64,000 nucleotides of DNA from Enterobacter cancerogenus (GTDB lineage Bacteria > Pseudomonadota > Gammaproteobacteria > Enterobacterales > Enterobacteriaceae), in the NCBI RefSeq assembly GCF_019047785.1, contig NZ_CP077290.1:4526001-4590000 (forward strand), written 5' to 3'. Numbering within the stretch: the first letter of the stretch is position 1; every line of letters begins with the position of its first letter. Position numbers and translations under genes: made by a program. Shown here piece after piece: positions 3,794 to 44,003 of this stretch. The notes below the pieces were generated by a model. That model was not told the origin of the DNA. It did no database searches and saw only the letters and a program-made list of their open reading frames with translations.

Positions 3794-6574
3794 ATGAACA
3801 CTAACGAACGCATGTTGAGTCCTTTCACTCTGCCGAATGGTACCGAACTGAAAAACCGTTTGTTAATGGCGCCAATGACCACCTGCACCGGCTATTACGA
3901 TGGTTCCGTGACCAGCGAGCTGGTGGAGTACTACCGGGCGCGGTCAGGAAGCATCGGCACAATCATCGTTGAGTGCTGTTTTGTCGACGATCTGGGCCTC
4001 GCTTTCCCCGGCGCGATTGGTATCGATAACGACGAAAAAATTGCCGGGCTGGCAAAAATTGCGGAGGCCATCAAATCCAAAGGCTCCAGAGCGTTACTGC
4101 AGATCTACCACGGCGGCCGCATGGTCGACCCGAAGCTGATTGGTGGCCGCACGCCGGTTGGGCCGAGCGCTGTTGCCGCGCCGCGTGAGGGGGCCGCAAC
4201 GCCGGTTGCCCTGACCACCGAAGAAGTGGAAGGGATGATCGTTAAGTTTGGCGACGCGGTGCGTCGCGCGATTCAGGCCGGCTTTGACGGCGTCGAGATC
4301 CACGGTGCCAACACCTACCTGATTCAGCAGTTCTATTCCCCTAACTCTAACCAGCGTGACGACGAGTGGGGCGGCAGCCGCGATAAGCGCGCCAGATTCC
4401 CGCTGGCGGTGCTGGACATCACCCATAAAATGGTGCGCCAGTACGCGGACGATGCTTTCATCATTGGCTACCGTTTCTCACCCGAAGAGATGGAAGTGCC
4501 CGGGATCCGCTTCGACGACACCCTGTACCTGCTGGAAAAACTGGCGGCGCGCGGCGTGGATTACCTGCACTTCTCCGTCGGCGCAACCCTGCGTCCGTCC
4601 ATCGTGGATACCAAGGATCCAACGCCGCTTATCGAAAAATATCTCGCGATGCGCTCTGACACCCTGGCTCAGGTGCCGGTGATGGGCGTGGGTGGCGTGG
4701 TGAACGCGTCTGACGTCAATGAAGCGCTGGACCACGGCTACGATCTGATTGCCGTAGGCCGTGCGACCATCGCCTACCCGGACTGGACCGACCGCATTGC
4801 CGCGGGCGAAAACCTTGAGCTGTTTATGGACAGCACACAGCGTGAAGCGTTGAACATCCCGGAACCGCTGTGGCGTTTCTCGCTGGTCGAAGCCATGATC
4901 CGCGACATGAGCATGGGCGAATCCAAATTCAAACCGGGCACGTTTGTTGAGAAAGTCCAGGATGACACCAACGAGCTGGTAATCAACGTTAGCCTGGAGA
5001 CCGACCGCATTGCCGATATCGAACTGGCTTCCGGCCCGGAGGATAACGTTGAGTTTGTCACCAGCTTCGAAGAGATCCGCACCCGCATCCTTGATGCTAA
5101 CACCCCGCACGTCGATGCCATTACCGGCGCGACAAGCCAGAGCGAAGCGGTGAAAAAAGCCGTTTCCAAAGCGATGCTGAAATCCAGTAAAGCGCTGGCG
5201 GCAGAGGAGGGGGCGGACCCGAACGAAATCAAATCTTTTGATGTTGTCGTGATCGGCAGCGGCGGTGCGGGGCTGGCAGCGGCCATTCAGGCCCACGATG
5301 AAGGCGCGAGCGTGCTGATCGTCGAGAAAATGCCGACCATTGGCGGTAATACCATCAAAGCCTCCGCCGGGATGAACGCGGCAGAAACCCGCTTCCAGCG
5401 TGTAAAAGGGATCCAGGACAGCAAAGCGCTGTTCTACAAGGAGACCCTGAAAGGCGGCGGCAACAAGAACAACCCGGAACTGCTGCATCGCTTCGTTGAG
5501 AACGCGCCTGAGGCCATCGAATGGCTGGCAACACGCGGTATCATGCTGAACGACATCACTACCACCGGCGGGATGAGCATCGACCGCACCCACCGTCCAA
5601 AAGACGGCTCCGCGGTGGGGGGCTATCTGATCAGCGGCCTGGTGCGCAATATCAACAAACGCAATATCGACGTGATGCTCGACACCTCCGTCAGCGACAT
5701 CCTGTTTGAAAACGGTGAAGTGACCGGCGTACGGCTGACCACCGAAGAGAACGAAACCTTCACCGTCGATGCGAAAAGCGTCATTGTGGCGACCGGCGGC
5801 TTTAGCGCAAACAGCCAGATGGTGGTCAAATACCGTCCTGACCTCGACGGGTTTGTGACCACAAACCATAAAGGGGCCACCGGCGGCGGCATCGCCCTGC
5901 TGGAACGTATTGGCGCGGGCACCGTGGATATGGGTGAAATTCAGATCCACCCAACCGTTGAGCAGAACACCTCGTACCTGATTTCTGAATCCATTCGCGG
6001 TGGTGGGGCGATTCTGGTAAGCCAGCAGGGTAACCGCTTCTTCAATGAAATGGAGACCCGCGATAAAGTCTCCGCGCAGATTATTGCCCTGCCGGAGAAA
6101 TACGCTTACATCGTCTTTGACGAGCATGTTCGTACCAAAAACAAAGCGGCGGATGAGTATATTGCCAAAGGCTTTGTCACCAGCGCCAGCTCACCTGAGG
6201 CGCTGGCCGAGAAGCTGGGAATGAACAGCGAGGCCTTCCTGACGACGCTGGCGCGTTACAACGGCTTTGTTGAAAAACAGCATGACGATGATTTTGGCCG
6301 GACCACCGCGCTGCGTGCGCCAATCAACGAAGGGCCGTTCTACGCCATTCAGATTGCACCGGGGGTGCACCACACCATGGGCGGCGTGACCATTAACACC
6401 GAAACCTGCGTACTGGATACTCACCACAACGTGCTGCCGGGCGCGTTTGCCGCGGGTGAAGTGGTCGGCGGGATCCACGGGGGTAACCGTATCGGCGGTA
6501 ACGCCGTGGCAGATATCATTATTTTTGGTACCCTTGCCGGACATCAGGCGGCGATGCGCGCGAAAAATGCCTAA
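3794..6574 (+). CDS. Soluble multiflavin fumarate reductase: OYE-like, FMN-binding and FAD-binding domains
   Basis: A 926-residue protein with no signal peptide. Residues ~5-350 form an Old Yellow Enzyme-type FMN barrel (HGANTYLIQQF at 170). Residues ~375-460 are an FMN_bind domain carrying the flavinylation motif DAITGATS at 441-448, where Thr447 would be covalently flavinylated. Residues ~480-926 are a fumarate reductase/succinate dehydrogenase FAD domain with dinucleotide fold GSGGAG at 488 and the C-terminal HGGNRIGGNAVAD. This architecture matches the cytoplasmic NADH:fumarate reductase described in Klebsiella pneumoniae, in which NADH reduces the OYE part and fumarate is reduced at FAD. 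The ApbE gene that would attach FMN follows directly. Other 2-enoate substrates cannot be excluded. Confidence 0.88.
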   Translation: MNTNERMLSPFTLPNGTELKNRLLMAPMTTCTGYYDGSVTSELVEYYRARSGSIGTIIVECCFVDDLGLAFPGAIGIDNDEKIAGLAKIAEAIKSKGSRALLQIYHGGRMVDPKLIGGRTPVGPSAVAAPREGAATPVALTTEEVEGMIVKFGDAVRRAIQAGFDGVEIHGANTYLIQQFYSPNSNQRDDEWGGSRDKRARFPLAVLDITHKMVRQYADDAFIIGYRFSPEEMEVPGIRFDDTLYLLEKLAARGVDYLHFSVGATLRPSIVDTKDPTPLIEKYLAMRSDTLAQVPVMGVGGVVNASDVNEALDHGYDLIAVGRATIAYPDWTDRIAAGENLELFMDSTQREALNIPEPLWRFSLVEAMIRDMSMGESKFKPGTFVEKVQDDTNELVINVSLETDRIADIELASGPEDNVEFVTSFEEIRTRILDANTPHVDAITGATSQSEAVKKAVSKAMLKSSKALAAEEGADPNEIKSFDVVVIGSGGAGLAAAIQAHDEGASVLIVEKMPTIGGNTIKASAGMNAAETRFQRVKGIQDSKALFYKETLKGGGNKNNPELLHRFVENAPEAIEWLATRGIMLNDITTTGGMSIDRTHRPKDGSAVGGYLISGLVRNINKRNIDVMLDTSVSDILFENGEVTGVRLTTEENETFTVDAKSVIVATGGFSANSQMVVKYRPDLDGFVTTNHKGATGGGIALLERIGAGTVDMGEIQIHPTVEQNTSYLISESIRGGGAILVSQQGNRFFNEMETRDKVSAQIIALPEKYAYIVFDEHVRTKNKAADEYIAKGFVTSASSPEALAEKLGMNSEAFLTTLARYNGFVEKQHDDDFGRTTALRAPINEGPFYAIQIAPGVHHTMGGVTINTETCVLDTHHNVLPGAFAAGEVVGGIHGGNRIGGNAVADIIIFGTLAGHQAAMRAKNA

Positions 6575-6590
6575 GTTATCTGTGTTGCAG

Positions 6591-6617
6591 GCCGGATAAG
6601 CGCAGCGCCATCCGGCA
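6591..6617. repeat. REP element
   Basis: GCCGGATAAG followed by CGCAGCGCCATCCGGCA is a near-consensus REP palindrome. It lies 17 bases after the reductase stop and before the ApbE gene and may form a hairpin in the shared transcript. Confidence 0.75.
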
Positions 6618-6667
6618 TTTTCCCCGGCAGCGCAGTGCTTGCCGGGGCGACATCGAGGAGACATGCT

Positions 6668-7630
6668 ATGCCCGACGGCCATCGCGTCTACAGCTATTCC
6701 GCCGTTCTGATGGGGTCACCCATCCTCCTGAAACTCTTCTCCCATGACGAAGCGCTCGCCTCCCGCGTTTTTCGCCTGATCCGCCACTATGAAGATCTGT
6801 TTACCGTCAACCGCGCTCAGTCAGAGGTGATGGCGATCAATCATGCTGCCGGCCAACATCCGGTTACCGTTAGCCGCCCGGTGTTTGAGCTGATCCGCTG
6901 TGCGCGGGCGGCAAGCCTGCTGAAAAACAGCGCGTTCAACCTCGCGATTGGTCCCCTGGTCAAGCGCTGGAAGATCGGCTTTAAGGGCGACAGCGTACCG
7001 CCTGCCGATGATATTGCCGCGCTGCTGGCCATCACCCGCCCGCAAGAGGTGGTGCTCGATGAAACTGACTCCAGCGTATTTCTGACCAAAGCCGGAATGG
7101 AGATCGACCTGGGAGCCATTGCCAAGGGCTACATTGCCGATCGCGTACGTGATTATCTGCAAAAAGAGGGCGCGGAACGGGGGTTGATTAACCTCGGCGG
7201 CAATATCCAGACGCTCGGCTCGCCGGAGGGGGGCTGGAGCGTGGGGCTGAAAAAACCGTTCAGTACCGATGCACTGATTGGTGCCATTGTGGTGGAGAAC
7301 CGGTCAGTGGTGACTTCAGGAACTTACGAACGCTATTTTGAACAAAACGGCAAACGCTATCACCACATTCTTGACCCGCGTACCGGCTACCCGCTGGACA
7401 ACGCGCTGGACAGCGTCACCGTGGTGTCGAAAGATTCCCTGGATGGCGATCTCTGGACCACGCTGTTATACGGGATGGGCGCAGAAAAAGGCTGCGAGGC
7501 GCTGCGTGCGCGCCCGGACATTGAGGCCATCTTTGTGACCAAAAGCAAAGACGTGGTGATCTCATCGATGCACCACTTCCGCTTCACCTTACTGGATAAC
7601 GCCTACCGCGTTACTGACAATACTGTTTAA
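6668..7630 (+). CDS. apbE: FAD:protein FMN transferase (ApbE family, cytoplasmic)
   Basis: A 320-residue ApbE-family enzyme that transfers FMN from FAD to the threonine of a DxxTGAT motif, here most likely Thr447 of the preceding reductase. Family motifs include DLGAIAKGYIAD, TSGTYERYF and HHILDPRTGYP. It lacks the signal peptide and lipobox of the periplasmic ApbE serving RNF/NQR, which fits a cytoplasmic client. The ATG at 6668 is chosen because GAGGAG lies 7 bases upstream; an upstream in-frame start at 6635 has no such site. It is co-oriented with the reductase with only a REP between them, so an operon is likely. Confidence 0.9.
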   Translation: MPDGHRVYSYSAVLMGSPILLKLFSHDEALASRVFRLIRHYEDLFTVNRAQSEVMAINHAAGQHPVTVSRPVFELIRCARAASLLKNSAFNLAIGPLVKRWKIGFKGDSVPPADDIAALLAITRPQEVVLDETDSSVFLTKAGMEIDLGAIAKGYIADRVRDYLQKEGAERGLINLGGNIQTLGSPEGGWSVGLKKPFSTDALIGAIVVENRSVVTSGTYERYFEQNGKRYHHILDPRTGYPLDNALDSVTVVSKDSLDGDLWTTLLYGMGAEKGCEALRARPDIEAIFVTKSKDVVISSMHHFRFTLLDNAYRVTDNTV

Positions 7631-8330
7631 GCAGCCCGATCTGTTCGGGTTGCAGACGGTAGCGATAAACCGGACGCCCGGTCGCACCGTAATGAATACT
7701 GGTGAACAGGATGTTGATCTGCGCCAGCCAAATCAGATACTTGCGGCAGGACACGCGGGAAATATTGACCGCGTTGGCCAGATCGTCGGTGGAGAACTCC
7801 ATCTCGGGATGTTCGTCAATCCACTGGCAAATGGTGCGCAGCGTTTGCGGCGTCAGCCCCTTCGGCAATTTTTTACTGTCCGCCAGCTCAGGCGCGCCGC
7901 CATGCAGCAGCCTGTCCACATCCGCCTGCTCATAGTACTGATGTGAACCCATCAGGTTGTGCTTCGCCTTCCAGCCGTTCAACGCCTCTTCAAAGCGCGG
8001 GAACTGGAACGGTTTGATCAGGTAATCGACCACGCCGTAATGCATGGAGGTCTGAATGGTGGCGGCATCGGACGCGGAAGAGATCATAATCACGTCAATC
8101 GGGCGGCCGGACGCGCGGATCACGGGCAGCAGATCCAGGCCGTTATCCTGCTGCATATAGACGTCGAGCAGCACCAGATCGACAGGCTGGTCGGGATTGT
8201 TGATGATGGCCTCGGCCTGGTTGAGCGTGGAGGCGACGCCGCAGCAGCTAAACCCGTCAACACGATTGACATACAGACGGTTGAGGTCGGCTACCATGGC
8301 GTCATCATCGACAATTAATACATTTATCAC
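7611..8330 (-). CDS. dcuR: DcuR-type response regulator of C4-dicarboxylate sensing
   Basis: A 239-residue CitB/DcuR-family response regulator, the same length as E. coli DcuR and similar throughout. The receiver domain has the DDD acidic pocket at 8-10, the phosphoacceptor Asp56 (LLDVYMQ) and the conserved Lys in YLIKPF. The C-terminus is the DcuR-type helix-turn-helix (VNISRVSCRKYLIWL). The start overlaps the end of dcuS by 4 bases, so the two are co-translated. Its 3' end overlaps the convergent apbE by 20 bases. In E. coli DcuR activates fumarate respiration and C4-dicarboxylate transport genes; here the neighbours are the obvious targets. Confidence 0.92.
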   Translation of the reverse strand: MINVLIVDDDAMVADLNRLYVNRVDGFSCCGVASTLNQAEAIINNPDQPVDLVLLDVYMQQDNGLDLLPVIRASGRPIDVIMISSASDAATIQTSMHYGVVDYLIKPFQFPRFEEALNGWKAKHNLMGSHQYYEQADVDRLLHGGAPELADSKKLPKGLTPQTLRTICQWIDEHPEMEFSTDDLANAVNISRVSCRKYLIWLAQINILFTSIHYGATGRPVYRYRLQPEQIGLLKQYCQ

Positions 8331-9943
8331 GCGATATTCCTCTCGCTATCCCAGGGGATGTGAACAAAAAATTGAGTAAATACGCCCGGCTCAGACTCGA
8401 CGGTAATGTCACCGCCCAGATTCTGGATCTGCTGGCGTGCAAGGAATAGCCCAACGCCGCGGTTTTCACCTTTCGTTGAGTACCCTTTGGTAAAAACGTC
8501 CTCCAGATGGAGGGGATCGATACCGGGACCGTCGTCGCTGACTTCACAGCTTAGCCAGCTGCTCTGATAGTGCAATAAAAGGCCAATCTCGCCCTCAGGC
8601 TGATCGTGCATGGCATCCAGCGCGTTTTCAATCAGGTTGCCGAGCACGGTGACCAGCACCGCGGCCTGTTCTTCGTTAGCCGTATCGGGCAGGTGACAGT
8701 CTTCGGCCAGCGTCAGGGTAACCCCGGCCTCCTTGGCGCGATTGATTTTGCCAAACAGGAAGCCCGCAATGACCGGTGATTTGATTTTGCGCTGGATCGC
8801 GCCGATATCGGTCTGGTAATTATTCGCGGTCTGGAGGATATACTCCTCCAGCTTGTCATAGCGTTTCATGTGCAGCAGGCCCAGGATCACGTGCAGCTTG
8901 TTCATAAACTCATGGGTATGGGCGCGCAGGGCGTCCACGTAGTTCACCATGCCGTCGATACGCTGCATGAGCTGGCTGACCTCTGTTTTATCACGGAACG
9001 TGCTGATCGCACCGATAACCCGGTTCTGGCTTTTCACCGGCACCATGTTACACAGCAGAAGCCTGCCGTTGCAGCCGATCTCCCGATCCTGACGCGCCAC
9101 GCCGGTTTTCGCCACCTCGCGCAGGCTTGCCAGCAGCGGTTCGCTGGCGTTCTCCGACTGTTGGCCCGACGGCAACAGCAAAATTTCTCGCGCGGCGTGG
9201 TTCACCATCGTCACGCGACCATGGGTATCCACCGCGATAACCCCTTCGCGCAGCGACTGAAGCATCGCCTGCCGCTGTTCAAACAGGGCCGAAATTTCAT
9301 ACGGCTCCAGCCCAAACAGGATCCGTTTCAGCACCCGGACCAGGCCCCAGATCGCCAGCGAACTCATTAATATGCTGAACAGGATCGTCCAGACCGCGTT
9401 CAGCCTTCCGCGCGTGATCTGATCTTCCACCTTTTTCAGGGAGATCCCCACGATCACCACGCCAATCTGATCGTGCTGGTTATCGTAGATGGGGGTAAAC
9501 ACGCGCAGCGCTTCGGCGAGCGCGCCCCGGTTGACGGAGACGTTCTCTTTCCCCTCCAGCGCGGGCGTCAGATCGTCACCAATAAAATGCAGCCCCAGCA
9601 GCGCTTCGTTTGGGTGAGAGTAGCGGATACCGCGCATATCGGTCACAACGGTGAACAGCAGATCGTTGCGCCGGGTGACGGCCTGCGCGATAGGCTGAAT
9701 AATATTATCCTGAGGCGATGCCATTAAACCGCGCCGGACGTCCGGGCTGTCGGCAAAGGTGCGCGCAATGCCGAGGGCGGTGTCTTTGACATCGTCTCGC
9801 GTGGCGCGGGTGATTTGCATGGAGTAGAGCGCAAATACCAGCAGCAGAACGGAGCCGATGATGGCGCATACCATGAGCGTGACCAGAGTGTAGAGTTTCA
9901 TCGGACGCCTGCGCGTCGGAGAAAGTTGCTGCAAATCGCTCAT
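8327..9943 (-). CDS. dcuS: DcuS-type sensor histidine kinase for C4-dicarboxylates
   Basis: A 538-residue membrane kinase: transmembrane helix at ~17-40, periplasmic PAS-like sensor to ~175, second helix ~182-205, cytoplasmic PAS ~220-320, then a kinase core with His344 in HEFMNKLHVILGLLH and the ATP-lid DDGPGID. Fumarate-contact residues known from E. coli DcuS are conserved as Arg107, His110 (IRYSHP) and Arg147 (LRVFTP). The ATG at 9943 is chosen because GGAG lies just upstream and because it gives these residues their E. coli numbers; an in-frame start 39 bases upstream is less likely. It phosphorylates DcuR, whose gene overlaps. Confidence 0.92.
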   Translation of the reverse strand: MSDLQQLSPTRRRPMKLYTLVTLMVCAIIGSVLLLVFALYSMQITRATRDDVKDTALGIARTFADSPDVRRGLMASPQDNIIQPIAQAVTRRNDLLFTVVTDMRGIRYSHPNEALLGLHFIGDDLTPALEGKENVSVNRGALAEALRVFTPIYDNQHDQIGVVIVGISLKKVEDQITRGRLNAVWTILFSILMSSLAIWGLVRVLKRILFGLEPYEISALFEQRQAMLQSLREGVIAVDTHGRVTMVNHAAREILLLPSGQQSENASEPLLASLREVAKTGVARQDREIGCNGRLLLCNMVPVKSQNRVIGAISTFRDKTEVSQLMQRIDGMVNYVDALRAHTHEFMNKLHVILGLLHMKRYDKLEEYILQTANNYQTDIGAIQRKIKSPVIAGFLFGKINRAKEAGVTLTLAEDCHLPDTANEEQAAVLVTVLGNLIENALDAMHDQPEGEIGLLLHYQSSWLSCEVSDDGPGIDPLHLEDVFTKGYSTKGENRGVGLFLARQQIQNLGGDITVESEPGVFTQFFVHIPWDSERNIA

Positions 9944-37737: not shown

Positions 37738-38649
37738 ATGGCAGTTATCAATACTAACCTGTTGTCCCTGACTACTCAGAACAACCTGAACAAATCTCAG
37801 TCTTCCCTGGGAACTGCGATCGAGCGTCTGTCCTCTGGTCTGCGTATCAACAGCGCGAAAGATGACGCTGCTGGCCAGGCGATTGCCAACCGTATGACTG
37901 CACAAGTTAAAGGTCTGACTCAGGCAGCACGTAACGCAAACGACGGTATCTCTGTTGCACAGACTACTGAAGGCGCACTGAACGAAATCAACACCAACTT
38001 ACAGCGTATCCGTGAACTGACCGTACAGGCTCAGAACGGTACTAACTCTGCGGATGACCTGGTTTCCATCAACAACGAAGTTGTTGACCGTATGAAAGAG
38101 ATCAACCGTGTTGCTGGCCAGACTAGCTTCAACGGCGTGAAGGTACTGTCTACCGCTCAGACGCTGAACATCCAGGTTGGCGCGAACGATTCCGAAACTA
38201 TCGGCATCTCCCTGAAGAAAATTGACTCTTCTACCCTGTTCGCTGGCAACGCCAAAATGTCTGGTATCACCGAAGGTACCACCGGTAAAGGTTCCGTTGG
38301 TATCCTGGCATCTTACTCTGCAGGTACTGCTGCAAGCGGCGCGACTGCTGCTACCGCTGCAACTGCAACCGTTGCTTCTGGCCTGCTGGCTGAAATCGAC
38401 AAAGCGATCTCTGACGTTGACTCCCTGCGTTCAAGCCTGGGTGCGAGCCAGAACCGTTTCGAATCTACCGTTAACAACCTGAACAGCACCGTGACCAACA
38501 TCACCGCTGCGAAGAGCCGCATTGAAGATGCTGACTACGCGACCGAAGTATCCAACATGAGCCGCGCACAGATCCTGCAGCAGGCGGGTACTTCTGTACT
38601 GTCTCAGGCTAACCAGGTTCCTCAGACCGTTCTGTCCCTGCTGCGTTAA
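37738..38649 (+). CDS. fliC: Flagellin FliC, short form
   Basis: The major filament subunit, 303 residues. The conserved D0/D1 ends are intact ([20 protein letters not shown] at the start, [18 protein letters not shown] at the end), but the surface D2/D3 region is reduced to roughly 60 residues rich in Ala, Thr, Ser and Gly ([18 protein letters not shown]). E. coli K-12 flagellin is ~498 residues. Codon choice is biased as in highly expressed genes. A strong terminator follows, then a putative flagellin-modifying enzyme. Ser and Thr in the short exposed part are candidate glycosylation sites. Confidence 0.97.
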
Positions 38650-38681
38650 TCGCTCAGTTACAATCTGTCTAATTAAGCTAA

Positions 38682-38717
38682 AAAATAACGGGTATTTCAC
38701 CCGTTATTTTTTTTTGT
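38682..38717 (+). terminator. Strong terminator after fliC
   Basis: A 12-bp stem AAAATAACGGGT / ACCCGTTATTTT (38682-38710) is followed by a long T-run. Confidence 0.93.
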
Positions 38718-38777
38718 GCTTTTTATACTGAATGCCCAATCTCAGCCAGACGGTTAAACCTGGATTAATGTGCTTTT

Positions 38778-41700
38778 ATGAAAAAATCACCCGCCAAGTC
38801 TTTTCAGAACAGTGAGCAACCCATTGATCATTCGATCAAAGAAAAAATGCGTCTTGCTGTTGAATGGCTGTCTACTCAGCCAGAAAAATCACTCAATGTA
38901 GCTAACGAATTACTCGTTGAAAACGCTACTAACTACCTGCTCTGGGTTATTGCTGCACGCGCACATCAGAGGTTGGGACAGTTTTTCCAGGCTGGCGAAT
39001 GCGTTGATAAAGCGCTTAAAATTGATTCAAATAACGTTGAAGCCATCTACGCGAAATCGGACCTTTTATATCGCAGCGACCGTTTAGCAGAAGCAGAAGA
39101 ATATCTGTCCACGGCGATTCATCAGGTTGAAAAAAACGCGGCCAATCCGCTGCGACTTCTTCTTGCTACGGTCTTACAGAAATCGAAAAAATATGAAGAG
39201 GCGCAGGCGCTTTATAAGCAGTTAACCGCTGAAATGCCAGGTAACTGGCTCTACTGGAATAACCTGGGGATGGTCCAACAAGACCTGAGCCAGTTCAACG
39301 AGATGGATGAGGCGTACCAGCACAGCTGTGAAGTCTCAAAAGATAACCCTACGCCCTATTTTAACCGTATCGTTGGTGCGCACTATAATCCGGAGCGCAG
39401 CGCCGAAGACATTCTTAAACTGTGTAAAAGCTGGCAGGAAAATTTCCCCCCGCGCTCGGTTAAGCGTGCGGTTGCCAAAAATAAAGCACCAGACAAGTGC
39501 CTGCGTATTGGTCTTGTCTCGGATGGCTTGCGCTTGCATCCGGTCGGGCAGATGATTGTGATGGGGCTGGAGCACATTCCCGCCTCACAGATTGAATTCT
39601 ACGCCTACAGCACCAACTACCAGGAAGATCACCTGACTCACCGCTTAAAGCGCATGTGTGCCAGCTGGCGGGTCGTGGAGCATATTGGCGCTGCTGAGCT
39701 TGATAAGATTGTCCGCGAAGACGAGATTGATATTCTGTTCGACCTCTGCGGCTATAACGCCAACAGCCGTATGCAAACCTTCCAGCTGCAGCCCGCGCCG
39801 ATTCAAATCAAGTGGGTAGGGGGGTTAATCAGCAGCACCGGGCTGGCCGGCATGGACTACCTGCTCAGCGACGCCATCGAAACGCCTGAATGGGCGGACT
39901 CGCTGTATACCGAAAAGTTGATCCGTATGCCGGATGACTATATTTGCTACGATCCGCCGTTCTACCTCCCGGCGGTGAGCGAAATGCCGGTTAAAACCAA
40001 AGGCTACTTCACCTTCGGCTGTTTTAATAACGCCTCTAAAATCAATGATTTTTTATTAAACCAGTGGGCGGTGCTATTGCACAGCGTGCCGGATTCCAGG
40101 CTGTTCCTGAAAAGCTTCAACTTTGATAACGAGAACTTAAAAGAGCGTGTATTGACGACCCTGGAAGGCCACGGTATCGCGCGCGAACGCGTGCGTATCG
40201 AAGGGATGGCACCGCATCAGGAGCTACTGGCCTGCTATAACGAGGTTGATATTGCCCTCGATCCCTGGCCGTACTCCGGTGGGCTGACCACCTGTGAAGC
40301 CCTGGCGATGGGCGTGCCTGTCGTGACCTTGCCGGGCCCAACCTTTGCGGGGCGTCACTCCGCCTCTCACCTGGTTAACGCGGGCCTGCAGGAACTGGTG
40401 GCCAGCGACTGGCAGAACTTTATTGATATTACCGTCGGCCTGACTCAGGACCTCAACAGCCTGGAGATTATCCGCGGCAACATGCGCGAGATTTTACTGG
40501 CCTCGCCGGTATGCGACGGCCAGCGCTTTGCGAAACATTTCTCGCAGGCAATGCGCGCCGTCTGGCAGCGTTACTGTGAAGGTAAAAAACCCGAAGCGCT
40601 GACCCTGCGCTGCGACGAGGCGCCTTATTTCCTGGATGATAACCAGCCGGTCGAACTGAAGATGCCGGCAGAGGTTGACGTTGCCGCGAGGCGAATCGAA
40701 AGTGAAGACTTCTCCTTCGCACTGGCGGGTAAGGTCATCACCATGGACTTTGGCGGCAGCTTCACAACGGGTAAGAAATTTATCAGCCTGACCGAGCTGG
40801 ATTCATTCTTCTTTATCATTATGGATACCCTCGGGGTCGTCGAAGACAAACACCTGCCGCCGCGCAAAAAATCGATGCAGCACATCAAACTGCACACCTT
40901 AGGCAACGGCGAACTCACGCCGGTGTATATGTGTTTGGATAATCGGCTGAGCAGTACGCTAAAACCTCTGAACACGATGAACGCCGCTGGCGCAGAAGTT
41001 CTCGTCGAGCTGAAATCTCAGTCATCGCAGCTTGATAATATTCATGGGCTGGAAAAGGTCGATCTGTTGGTGCTGGACAACAAATTCGATCTGGCACCCG
41101 TCTTCCAGTATGGGTCGCGCATTCTGCAAGAGTGTCTGACCGTCGAAGTCAAAATTACCTTTGCGAATACTCATCAGGGCCAGATGTCCCTGGACGCGAT
41201 TGGCAGCGTACTCGCGCACTCCGGCTTTAACTTCCACAGCTTTACGGACGTTGAGTACGGTGCGCCAAAAGTCTTTGCTAACGCTGAGCCTCTGGCCTCA
41301 ACGCAGATGGTGTCGGCTAAAGCGATATTTATTCCGGGCGAGCACAGGCTGTGCAATCTCAGTAGTGCGCAGCATGAAAAATTAGCCTTTATTATGCATG
41401 TGGTTTATGGCCTGCATGACGTTGCGGCCACGCTGTTGCAGGCGCACTCGTCCGGGCGTGCAGAGGCTTATATTAATGAGATTTTATTTCCCCACCAGCT
41501 CACTACTGCAAAACAGCGGAAACACGGTTTACCGCAAAAGCTTGTTGTCAGCTTAACCTCCTGGCATAAGCGTTTTGCTACGCTGCAATACACCCTTCAA
41601 CGTTTATTGAAACAGACCGTTAAAGCGGATCGTATTATTTTGTGGCTTGCCGAGTCGGAGCGCCATCTCGTTCCAGAAAACGTCCTTGCCTTTGCGTCGA

Positions 41701-42950
41701 AGGGTATTGAGATAAAATATTGCGACGATATTCGCTCTTACAAGAAAATTGTCCCGACGTTAATTGAGGAACCGAATGCCTTCATCGTGACGGCCGATGA
41801 TGATTTAGCCTATCAGCCGCAATGGCTGGAAAAACTTATTGCCGGTTGGGATGGGGATTATAAAACGGTGGTTGCGCACCGGGCACATAAAATCCGTCTT
41901 GGCAGCGATAACACCCCCATTCCTTATAAAGAGTGGAAATGGAATTACTCCGTCACCACGGATCTTTCTAACCTCATTTTCCCGACCACGGGATTCGGTG
42001 CGCTTTATCCACCAAAATGCTTCCATGCTGATGTGCTCAAAAAAGAGATTTTTGAGAAATTAGCGCCTGGCGCTGACGATGTCTGGCTGTTCTGGATGTG
42101 TCGTATGAACGGAGTGAAATTTAACGTTGTTCCTGAACATATGGAATCCGAGGAATGGAAAGGAACCTCAGAAGATGGTCTGTGGCAAACTAACCTGCTG
42201 CAGGGTGAGAACGACAAGTATATTAAGAACATGATTGCCCATTATGGCTTTGCGCCGGAGGCGAAAGCGGTTATCGATCGTTCTGCGACGAAGTCCGATG
42301 ATAACCGCGACTCTCAGAAAGAATCCCTGGCCTTCCGTCAGTCGGGCCAGTACTGGGACGATCGTTACCGCTTAAAAGGCAACTCCGGAGCGGGCTCTTA
42401 TGGTCGCCTGGCTGACTTTAAGGCCGAGGTTATTAACGCGTTCGTGAAAGAGGAGCAGGTGAGTTCTGTGATGGAGTTCGGCTGCGGTGATGGTAACCAG
42501 TTGTCTCTCGCTGACTATCCTCGCTATACGGGTTTTGATGTTTCTGACCATGCGATACAGCTCTGCCGGAATCGGTTTAGCAACGACCCGACAAAAGATT
42601 TTTATCCGGTAGGTGACTGGACAGGGCAGCAGGCAGAATTAACCCTCTCCCTGGACGTGATTTATCATCTTATTGAAGATGAAATTTTTGAAAAGTATAT
42701 GCAGACGCTTTTCTCTGCGGCATCGAGATTTGTCATCGTTTATGCCTCGAACAATGAGGAATATAACGTTTCTATCTCGAAATATGCCCAGCACGTGTAT
42801 CATCGAAAATTCACGGATTGGGTCTTGAAAAACAGAGGCGAATCCTGGGAGTTACATAAGTACATACCTAATAAATATCAGTTTGATGCTAACGATCAAA
42901 ACAATACGTCGTTTGCTGATTTCTATATTTTCCGTCGAGTTGATAGCTAA
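38778..42950 (+). CDS. Giant multidomain glycosyltransferase/methyltransferase, probable flagellin-modifying protein
   Basis: A 1390-residue cytoplasmic protein with at least four parts: TPR-like helical repeats (~20-195); a GT41/SPINDLY-type O-GlcNAc-transferase-like domain (~240-600; LRLHPVG at 251, GYFTFGCFNNASKIN at 409, GGLTTCEALAMGVPVVTLPG at 501); a middle region (~645-900) vaguely like FkbM-type proteins; a GT-A-like glycosyltransferase (~918-1135; TADDDL at 1005); and a C-terminal SAM-dependent methyltransferase (~1185-1390; EFGCGDG at 1233). It lies just after fliC and before fliA, where enterobacterial flagellin glycosylation genes are found. The N-terminal TPR plus GT41 could glycosylate Ser/Thr of FliC, with the other domains extending or methylating the glycan. 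That role is inferred. The 128-base gap after fliC contains the fliC terminator. Confidence 0.8.
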   Translation: MKKSPAKSFQNSEQPIDHSIKEKMRLAVEWLSTQPEKSLNVANELLVENATNYLLWVIAARAHQRLGQFFQAGECVDKALKIDSNNVEAIYAKSDLLYRSDRLAEAEEYLSTAIHQVEKNAANPLRLLLATVLQKSKKYEEAQALYKQLTAEMPGNWLYWNNLGMVQQDLSQFNEMDEAYQHSCEVSKDNPTPYFNRIVGAHYNPERSAEDILKLCKSWQENFPPRSVKRAVAKNKAPDKCLRIGLVSDGLRLHPVGQMIVMGLEHIPASQIEFYAYSTNYQEDHLTHRLKRMCASWRVVEHIGAAELDKIVREDEIDILFDLCGYNANSRMQTFQLQPAPIQIKWVGGLISSTGLAGMDYLLSDAIETPEWADSLYTEKLIRMPDDYICYDPPFYLPAVSEMPVKTKGYFTFGCFNNASKINDFLLNQWAVLLHSVPDSRLFLKSFNFDNENLKERVLTTLEGHGIARERVRIEGMAPHQELLACYNEVDIALDPWPYSGGLTTCEALAMGVPVVTLPGPTFAGRHSASHLVNAGLQELVASDWQNFIDITVGLTQDLNSLEIIRGNMREILLASPVCDGQRFAKHFSQAMRAVWQRYCEGKKPEALTLRCDEAPYFLDDNQPVELKMPAEVDVAARRIESEDFSFALAGKVITMDFGGSFTTGKKFISLTELDSFFFIIMDTLGVVEDKHLPPRKKSMQHIKLHTLGNGELTPVYMCLDNRLSSTLKPLNTMNAAGAEVLVELKSQSSQLDNIHGLEKVDLLVLDNKFDLAPVFQYGSRILQECLTVEVKITFANTHQGQMSLDAIGSVLAHSGFNFHSFTDVEYGAPKVFANAEPLASTQMVSAKAIFIPGEHRLCNLSSAQHEKLAFIMHVVYGLHDVAATLLQAHSSGRAEAYINEILFPHQLTTAKQRKHGLPQKLVVSLTSWHKRFATLQYTLQRLLKQTVKADRIILWLAESERHLVPENVLAFASKGIEIKYCDDIRSYKKIVPTLIEEPNAFIVTADDDLAYQPQWLEKLIAGWDGDYKTVVAHRAHKIRLGSDNTPIPYKEWKWNYSVTTDLSNLIFPTTGFGALYPPKCFHADVLKKEIFEKLAPGADDVWLFWMCRMNGVKFNVVPEHMESEEWKGTSEDGLWQTNLLQGENDKYIKNMIAHYGFAPEAKAVIDRSATKSDDNRDSQKESLAFRQSGQYWDDRYRLKGNSGAGSYGRLADFKAEVINAFVKEEQVSSVMEFGCGDGNQLSLADYPRYTGFDVSDHAIQLCRNRFSNDPTKDFYPVGDWTGQQAELTLSLDVIYHLIEDEIFEKYMQTLFSAASRFVIVYASNNEEYNVSISKYAQHVYHRKFTDWVLKNRGESWELHKYIPNKYQFDANDQNNTSFADFYIFRRVDS

Positions 42951-43283: not shown

Positions 43284-44003
43284 GTGAATTCACTCTATAC
43301 CGCTGAAGGTGTAATGGATAAACACTCGCTGTGGCAGCGTTATGTCCCGCTGGTGCGTCACGAAGCATTGCGCCTCCAGGTGCGGTTGCCGGCGAGCGTG
43401 GAACTGGACGATCTGCTACAGGCGGGCGGTATCGGGTTATTAAATGCAGTTGACCGATACGACGCTCTGCAAGGAACGGCATTTACGACTTACGCAGTTC
43501 AGCGTATTCGTGGTGCGATGCTGGACGAGTTGCGCAGCCGCGATTGGGTGCCGCGCAGCGTTCGCCGCAACGCGCGCGAAGTGGCTCATGCAATGGGACA
43601 GCTGGAACAGGAACTGGGGCGCAACGCGACGGAAACGGAAGTGGCGGAGCGTCTGGGGATTGCTGTTGAAGACTATCGTCAGATGTTGCTCGATACCAAT
43701 AATAGCCAACTCTTCTCTTACGATGAGTGGCGCGAAGAGCATGGCGACAGTATCGAGCTGGTGACGGATGAGCATCAGCAAGAAAACCCGTTACACCATT
43801 TAATGGAAGGTAACTTACGCCAGCGCGTGATGGAAGCGATTGAAGCGTTACCAGAACGTGAACAGCTGGTGTTGACCCTTTATTACCAGGAAGAGCTTAA
43901 TCTCAAGGAGATTGGCGCGGTGCTGGAAGTAGGGGAGTCGCGGGTTAGCCAGCTGCACAGCCAGGCCATAAAACGCTTACGGACAAAACTGGGTAAGTTG
44001 TAG
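43284..44003 (+). CDS. fliA: Flagellar sigma factor FliA (sigma-28)
   Basis: A 239-residue sigma-70-family factor for class III flagellar promoters. Region 2 includes LDDLLQAGGIGLLNAVDRYD and FTTYAVQRIRGAMLDELRS; region 4 is the C-terminal LNLKEIGAVLEVGESRVSQLHSQ helix-turn-helix. The start is a GTG at 43284; an ATG at 43314 (MDKHSLWQRY) is an alternative. It should drive the fliC and fliD promoters seen here and is inhibited by FlgM. Confidence 0.96.
   Translation: MNSLYTAEGVMDKHSLWQRYVPLVRHEALRLQVRLPASVELDDLLQAGGIGLLNAVDRYDALQGTAFTTYAVQRIRGAMLDELRSRDWVPRSVRRNAREVAHAMGQLEQELGRNATETEVAERLGIAVEDYRQMLLDTNNSQLFSYDEWREEHGDSIELVTDEHQQENPLHHLMEGNLRQRVMEAIEALPEREQLVLTLYYQEELNLKEIGAVLEVGESRVSQLHSQAIKRLRTKLGKL

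Follow-up and report, generated by a model that had tools for sequence, protein, structure and literature searches.

The question raised by this locus is what a single very long gene, inserted between fliC and fliA, could do for the flagellum of its host. In the 64,000-nucleotide stretch of Enterobacter cancerogenus DNA analysed here (the window), which comes from a genome consisting of a single 4.82-Mb contig, an amylase-like gene, fliT, fliS, fliD and fliC (37738..38649, + strand; 303 aa, its identity backed by Flagellin_N and Flagellin_C matches) lie to the left, and fliA (43284..44003, +), the right boundary of the insertion site, is followed by fliZ and cystine-transport-type genes, the names being read from the translations. 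In between, the ORF listing gives one uninterrupted frame of 1390 aa with an ATG start (38778..42950, +) and no second frame of 100 aa or more on the + strand, and the gene is as real as the first-pass annotation had taken it to be. A chance ORF or an annotation artefact is ruled out by close full-length relatives, among them P0001, a 1390-aa cluster named from Enterobacter cloacae that groups 137 sequences and is 92% identical. NCBIfam has no name for the enzyme, every match being under cut-off, and the GC content along the gene (46-55%), the same as or slightly under that of its surroundings, is not telling. Our answer, to which we give a probability of about two in three, is that the gene encodes a modular TPR-GT41-pseudoFkbM-GT-A-methyltransferase enzyme acting on flagellin, in which one five-part chain would add a first sugar, then a second sugar, and then a methyl group.

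The N-terminal portion (38778..39422, +; residues ~1-215) is a TPR domain, as first proposed, with TPR_2, TPR_8 and TPR_19 passing the Pfam cut-off in the whole protein. By analogy with FlmG it likely binds flagellin, and it would hold the cytoplasmic protein before export. Next comes a SPINDLY-like GT41 domain (39450..40613, +; residues 225-612), matched by PF13844 in the whole protein with an E-value of 7e-40 and 137 bits against a cut-off of 25. In the printed alignment its H254, N417, K421 and Y499 face H495, N661, K665 and Y744 of the Arabidopsis SPINDLY protein (AtSPY), the active-site Lys (K665) and His (H495) being kept as K421 and H254; of the 117 core proteins among the homologues listed, 109 have FNN..K and 115 have HPVG. 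This domain would add the first sugar to Ser/Thr residues in the short centre of FliC (20 Ser/Thr in 75 residues), and we consider fucose or another small hexose a more likely substrate than GlcNAc.

The middle domain (40695..41492, +; residues 640-905), which had been left as a region of uncertain type with FkbM on the list of profiles to check, can now be identified as a degenerate FkbM-type pseudo-methyltransferase. When isolated (~640-905) it matched no Pfam family, FkbM included, at E-values up to 1, and the link required profile-profile comparison, sequence profiles and structure then agreeing on FkbM ancestry and fold. No profile link was obtained to the P0011-like FkbM tails (31 rows; Prob 1.2), so the assignment rests on the P0040-like tails and on structure. 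The domain shares fold and ancestry with the FkbM family (PF05050; solved example 2py6), but the Glu of the family's KIDxxGxE motif is found in 0 of 142 middle-domain rows and the Gly in 2 of 142, while the two groups of C-terminal FkbM tails keep a motif of this type in 30 of 31 and 6 of 7 rows. At the sequence level, these comparisons show descent from the FkbM family with loss of KIDxxGxE. Given that loss, the domain has probably ceased to act as a methyltransferase and would rather serve as a scaffold or docking piece. In P0040, P0041 and P0076 the middle domain is followed by an FkbM copy bearing KIDxxGxE, as expected if the first copy had quit that job.

The last two domains are weaker in the whole protein, where Glycos_transf_2 gave an E-value of 9.5e-5 (22.8 bits, cut-off 23.3) and Methyltransf_23 one of 5e-5 (23.5 bits, cut-off 27). 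The GT-A glycosyltransferase domain (41520..42257, +; residues 915-1160) passes for PF00535 when isolated, with 28.6 bits against 23.3, and has the DxD-type motif (DDD at 1007-1009) and the GT-A fold, which upholds the second glycosyltransferase originally proposed; it would attach the second sugar. The class I SAM methyltransferase domain (42309..42947, +; residues 1178-1390), likewise anticipated, carries motif I (EFGCGDGN from residue 1233) and the class I fold and reaches 27 bits against a cut-off of 27 when isolated; it would cap the glycan. The domain search that had been suggested as a check therefore gave a clear pass for GT41, a pass for GT2 in the isolated domain and a methyltransferase score right at the cut-off, but Pfam FkbM was silent on the middle piece. 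The best structural match of the terminal domain is NodS, a methyltransferase of the Nod-factor aminosugar. Stand-alone relatives of this domain (69-70%) in two congeners adjoin a double glycosyltransferase gene, which is of 763 aa in G016 and runs off the end of the locus in G042. The G016 stretch contains flgD, flgA, fliI, fliH, fliG and fliF-type genes, as read from the translations, and by this reading is a flag-2 locus, the variable region of which is rich in such genes according to the available portion of a 2020 paper (PMC6993521).

A glycosyltransferase gene inserted between fliC and fliA is what is expected of a flagellin glycosylation island, but sugar-biosynthesis genes are absent and the insert is one gene. 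The claim that one protein carries the whole pathway was therefore overstated, and donor sugars would be drawn from house pools. The source genome has one gmd gene scoring over the family cut-off, which is compatible with a GDP-fucose route without being decisive. A strong terminator-like hairpin (38680..38712, +) sits 3′ of fliC, and a scan with the sigma-28 consensus listed no sigma-28-like promoter before the enzyme gene at up to 3 mismatches (38225-39007), whereas such sites occur before fliC (1 mismatch) and fliD (0 mismatches).

We examined 30 related loci from named genomes and the fliC-fliA interval of 59 congeners (fliA being found in 60 of 61 genomes, the window's included). The core including the middle domain is shared by 117 of the 120 homologues listed (418 were found), so the single-chain multi-enzyme, at first expected to be unusual, is not unique. 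It is whole in 23 of the 30 loci, from Siccibacter, Halomonas and relatives, Bordetella, Achromobacter, Zobellella, Oceanimonas and others, and in all 23 a flagellin frame lies 30-215 bp away, measured between open frames; of the seven loci lacking the middle domain, three have a flagellin match and four none. Among the congeners the interval is empty in 24, holds a FliB-sized gene in 12, GT41 with other frames in 16, GT41 alone in two and something else in five. The window's core recurs in G028 (RIT714) alone, and so does a near-identical flagellin (94% identity to the window's, against 53-74% for the other 58). FliC is the likely acceptor, its allele having been inherited along with the enzyme gene in G028.

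Flagellin length also varies with the insert, the species being related and the counts therefore not independent: FliC has 325-600 aa in 24 of 24 congeners with an empty interval and, where the insert is 1 kb or longer, 274-303 aa in 30 of 34 (162, 318, 338 and 375 aa in the others), a tally that leaves out a genome whose gap is 781 bp and whose FliC has 459 aa. The pattern looks as though the outer domain of flagellin had given way to surface modification. That the whole family goes with a short flagellin was rejected, since this holds in the genus but flagellins at many other loci often have 370-560 aa. In two congeners (L067:5889-9224, L109:924-4391) a methyltransferase and a methyltransferase-regulatory domain stand ahead of GT41, and GT41-methyltransferase fusions, as judged from these domain matches, therefore exist in both orders. 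In two others the site is occupied by very long genes (L112:6849-10487 and L113; 1211 aa with 1129 or 612 aa), the one tested being GT2-type. Six GT41 matches follow one another in a 3769-aa open frame of a Geobacteraceae MAG (L057:3073-14379); Bordetella ansorpii has a 1762-aa frame with GT41, GT2, GT-A, the middle domain and the methyltransferase (L045:9518-14803), and Larsenimonas suaedae three tandem flagellin matches ahead of the GT41 gene (L053 ~6488-9600).

What follows the core varies. Sorted by tail, 139 cores are followed by another ~200-aa domain without Pfam match in 63 cases (resembling the methyltransferase-like protein 3cvo; E 2e-15, one member tested), by GT-A and FkbM in 30, by GT-A and the window's methyltransferase in 23, by FkbM in five, by a GT56-type domain in four (L040, L044, L047 and L049, two tested, none with an FkbM seed match), by a sulfotransferase in two (both tested), by GT2 in two (one tested) and by another glycosyltransferase-like domain in one; the six with nothing and the three with GT-A only may be cut contigs. 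The sulfotransferase matches (PF13469; L038:12560-13351 and L050:8895-9611; E 1e-28 and 7e-31) occupy the tail slot, suggesting sulfated flagellin glycans, and the GT56-type tails (4-alpha-L-fucosyltransferase family) were matched at L047:12542-13735 and L040:12500-14668 (E 2e-16 and 7e-16). On a FastTree tree of GT41 plus the middle domain (34 of 136 inner branches with support under 80; four of 142 core frames excluded, L001 and L002 as duplicates and P0022 and P0101 as short), at least 47 changes of tail type are needed, compared with a possible minimum of nine and an average of 68.4 for shuffles, which indicates that tails are in part inherited and often exchanged. The number is 39 on the 130 rows left when the "nothing" and "GT-A only" tails are removed, and when only starred branches are counted the three largest tail groups still have to change 23, 16 and 13 times. 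On this tree the post-core part is shown to vary among relatives beyond what shared descent allows.

One such exchange can be followed between the window and G028. Their TPR, GT41 and middle domains are 79-92% identical, and identity is 75% at residues 906-980 and 83% at 981-1040 before falling to 58%, 53% and 22%. Past residue ~1040 G028 instead resembles P0011, which comes from Enterobacter hormaechei and ends in an FkbM tail, at identities of 87%, 70% and 75%; the closing 230 residues of the window's protein match P0008 at 69% identity. Since DNA similarity between the window and G028 is visible up to 42124 (residue ~1116), the break lies inside the GT-A domain, after the DDD motif, and the segment from ~residue 1041 to the C-terminus (41898..42950, +) is of other origin than in the closest congener. 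By these identities the pair represents one tail-exchange event, and exchange of one cassette could give a strain a different flagellar glycan. A bolder model, which we put forward tentatively as one that may well prove wrong, is that the TPR-GT41-pseudoFkbM core is a chassis, its dead methyltransferase docking and handing the first sugar to whichever enzyme is plugged in, and that strains would swap the C-terminal cassette in one recombination, together with a matching flagellin allele, and so rewrite their flagellar surface chemistry.

The identity of the first sugar is where our reading departs from the O-GlcNAc-transferase-like label first given to the domain, which was right as to GT41 membership but too specific. 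That GT41 is a true O-GlcNAc transferase using UDP-GlcNAc, with the remaining mechanism unchanged, has family membership in its favour, and the SPINDLY/COG3914 domain was read that way in 2016, with wider specificity allowed, in the part of the paper available (PMC4875605). We nevertheless find it unlikely: the small Cys917 that leaves room for GlcNAc in human OGT is replaced here by Tyr499, as by Tyr744 in SPINDLY, PYSGG occupies this position in all 117 core proteins among the homologues listed, and the sequence lies farther from human OGT than from plant SPINDLY and TtOGT. Among relatives of solved structure TtOGT is the closest, and according to the SPINDLY paper it had no O-GlcNAc activity in vitro. 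About as improbable, in our view, is a middle domain that is still active with altered chemistry or is a SAM sensor. The Asp and Gly of motif I and the acidic residue of motif II are for the most part retained, and the domain persists in nearly all of the listed homologues, but the loss of KIDxxGxE and the further motif-bearing copy in three proteins speak against it.

The terminal methyltransferase might also modify flagellin itself, on a lysine or the N-terminal amine, rather than the glycan. Methylation of flagellin lysines is a frequent feature of this site, where both FliB-sized genes tested of the 12 match the FliB model above cut-off, and the protein N-methyltransferases NTMT1/NRMT are among the structural matches of the domain. 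However, the best of these matches is NodS, other tails include sulfotransferase and glycosyltransferase domains, and the stand-alone relative in G016 adjoins glycosyltransferases in a locus that includes a FliB-like gene of its own (65.9 bits against a cut-off of 85), all of which makes protein methylation somewhat less probable still than the two preceding alternatives. Finally, the site could be merely an insertion hot spot and the enzyme could target something besides flagellin, inserts unrelated to flagellin ornamentation having been recorded there in the available part of De Maayer and Cowan (PMC4875605). With flagellin adjacent in every whole-core locus and the flagellin allele co-inherited in G028, we regard this as very improbable.

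Several known systems resemble the proposed one. As far as the available text of De Maayer and Cowan (2016; PMC4875605) goes, GT41 enzymes occupy the fliC-fliA site in 198 strains and are suggested to be O-GlcNAc transferases, nearly all carry a methyltransferase domain, and one-protein islands are admitted, so that GT41-methyltransferase fusions have been on record since then. The window's enzyme shares the site, the SPINDLY-type GT41 and the methyltransferase with these enzymes, but that text does not give the middle domain, the same-chain second transferase or the tail exchange, and two congener proteins have the methyltransferase ahead of GT41, the reverse of the order here. In the accessible portion of a study of Dickeya dadantii (PMC6637903), the fliA-fliC cluster likewise combines an OGT-type enzyme, a second sugar transferase and a methyltransferase, but as separate genes with predicted sugar-modifying enzymes that the insert lacks; flagellin mass was shown experimentally to depend on both transferase genes (32170, 31034 and 28890 Da), from which its authors propose multiple disaccharides, and motility was unaffected. 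FlmG of Caulobacter crescentus also joins an N-terminal TPR part, shown to bind flagellins, to a C-terminal GT-B transferase with flagellin targets, but it has 596 aa and a pseudaminic acid donor, and the part of the source available (PMC7591256) names no FkbM-like, GT-A or methyltransferase part. Arabidopsis SPINDLY (7y4i, 8dtf), a protein O-fucosyltransferase, has TPR and GT41 and the essential Lys, His and donor-pocket Tyr in common with the window's enzyme, but its Ser496 and Thr748 are Pro and Leu here and it is without the extra C-terminal domains.

A search of the open-licence literature found no account of a pseudo-FkbM core, a same-chain second transferase or tail exchange; as far as found, these are the new part, the site, the GT41 enzymes and the methyltransferase fusions being already known. 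Our data give an identity to a domain missed by Pfam that is common to more than 100 listed flagellin-locus glycosyltransferases, and they place on a single testable polypeptide a pathway that generally takes several genes. Cassette exchange with a mapped break offers a concrete mechanism by which close relatives could wear different flagellar glycans.
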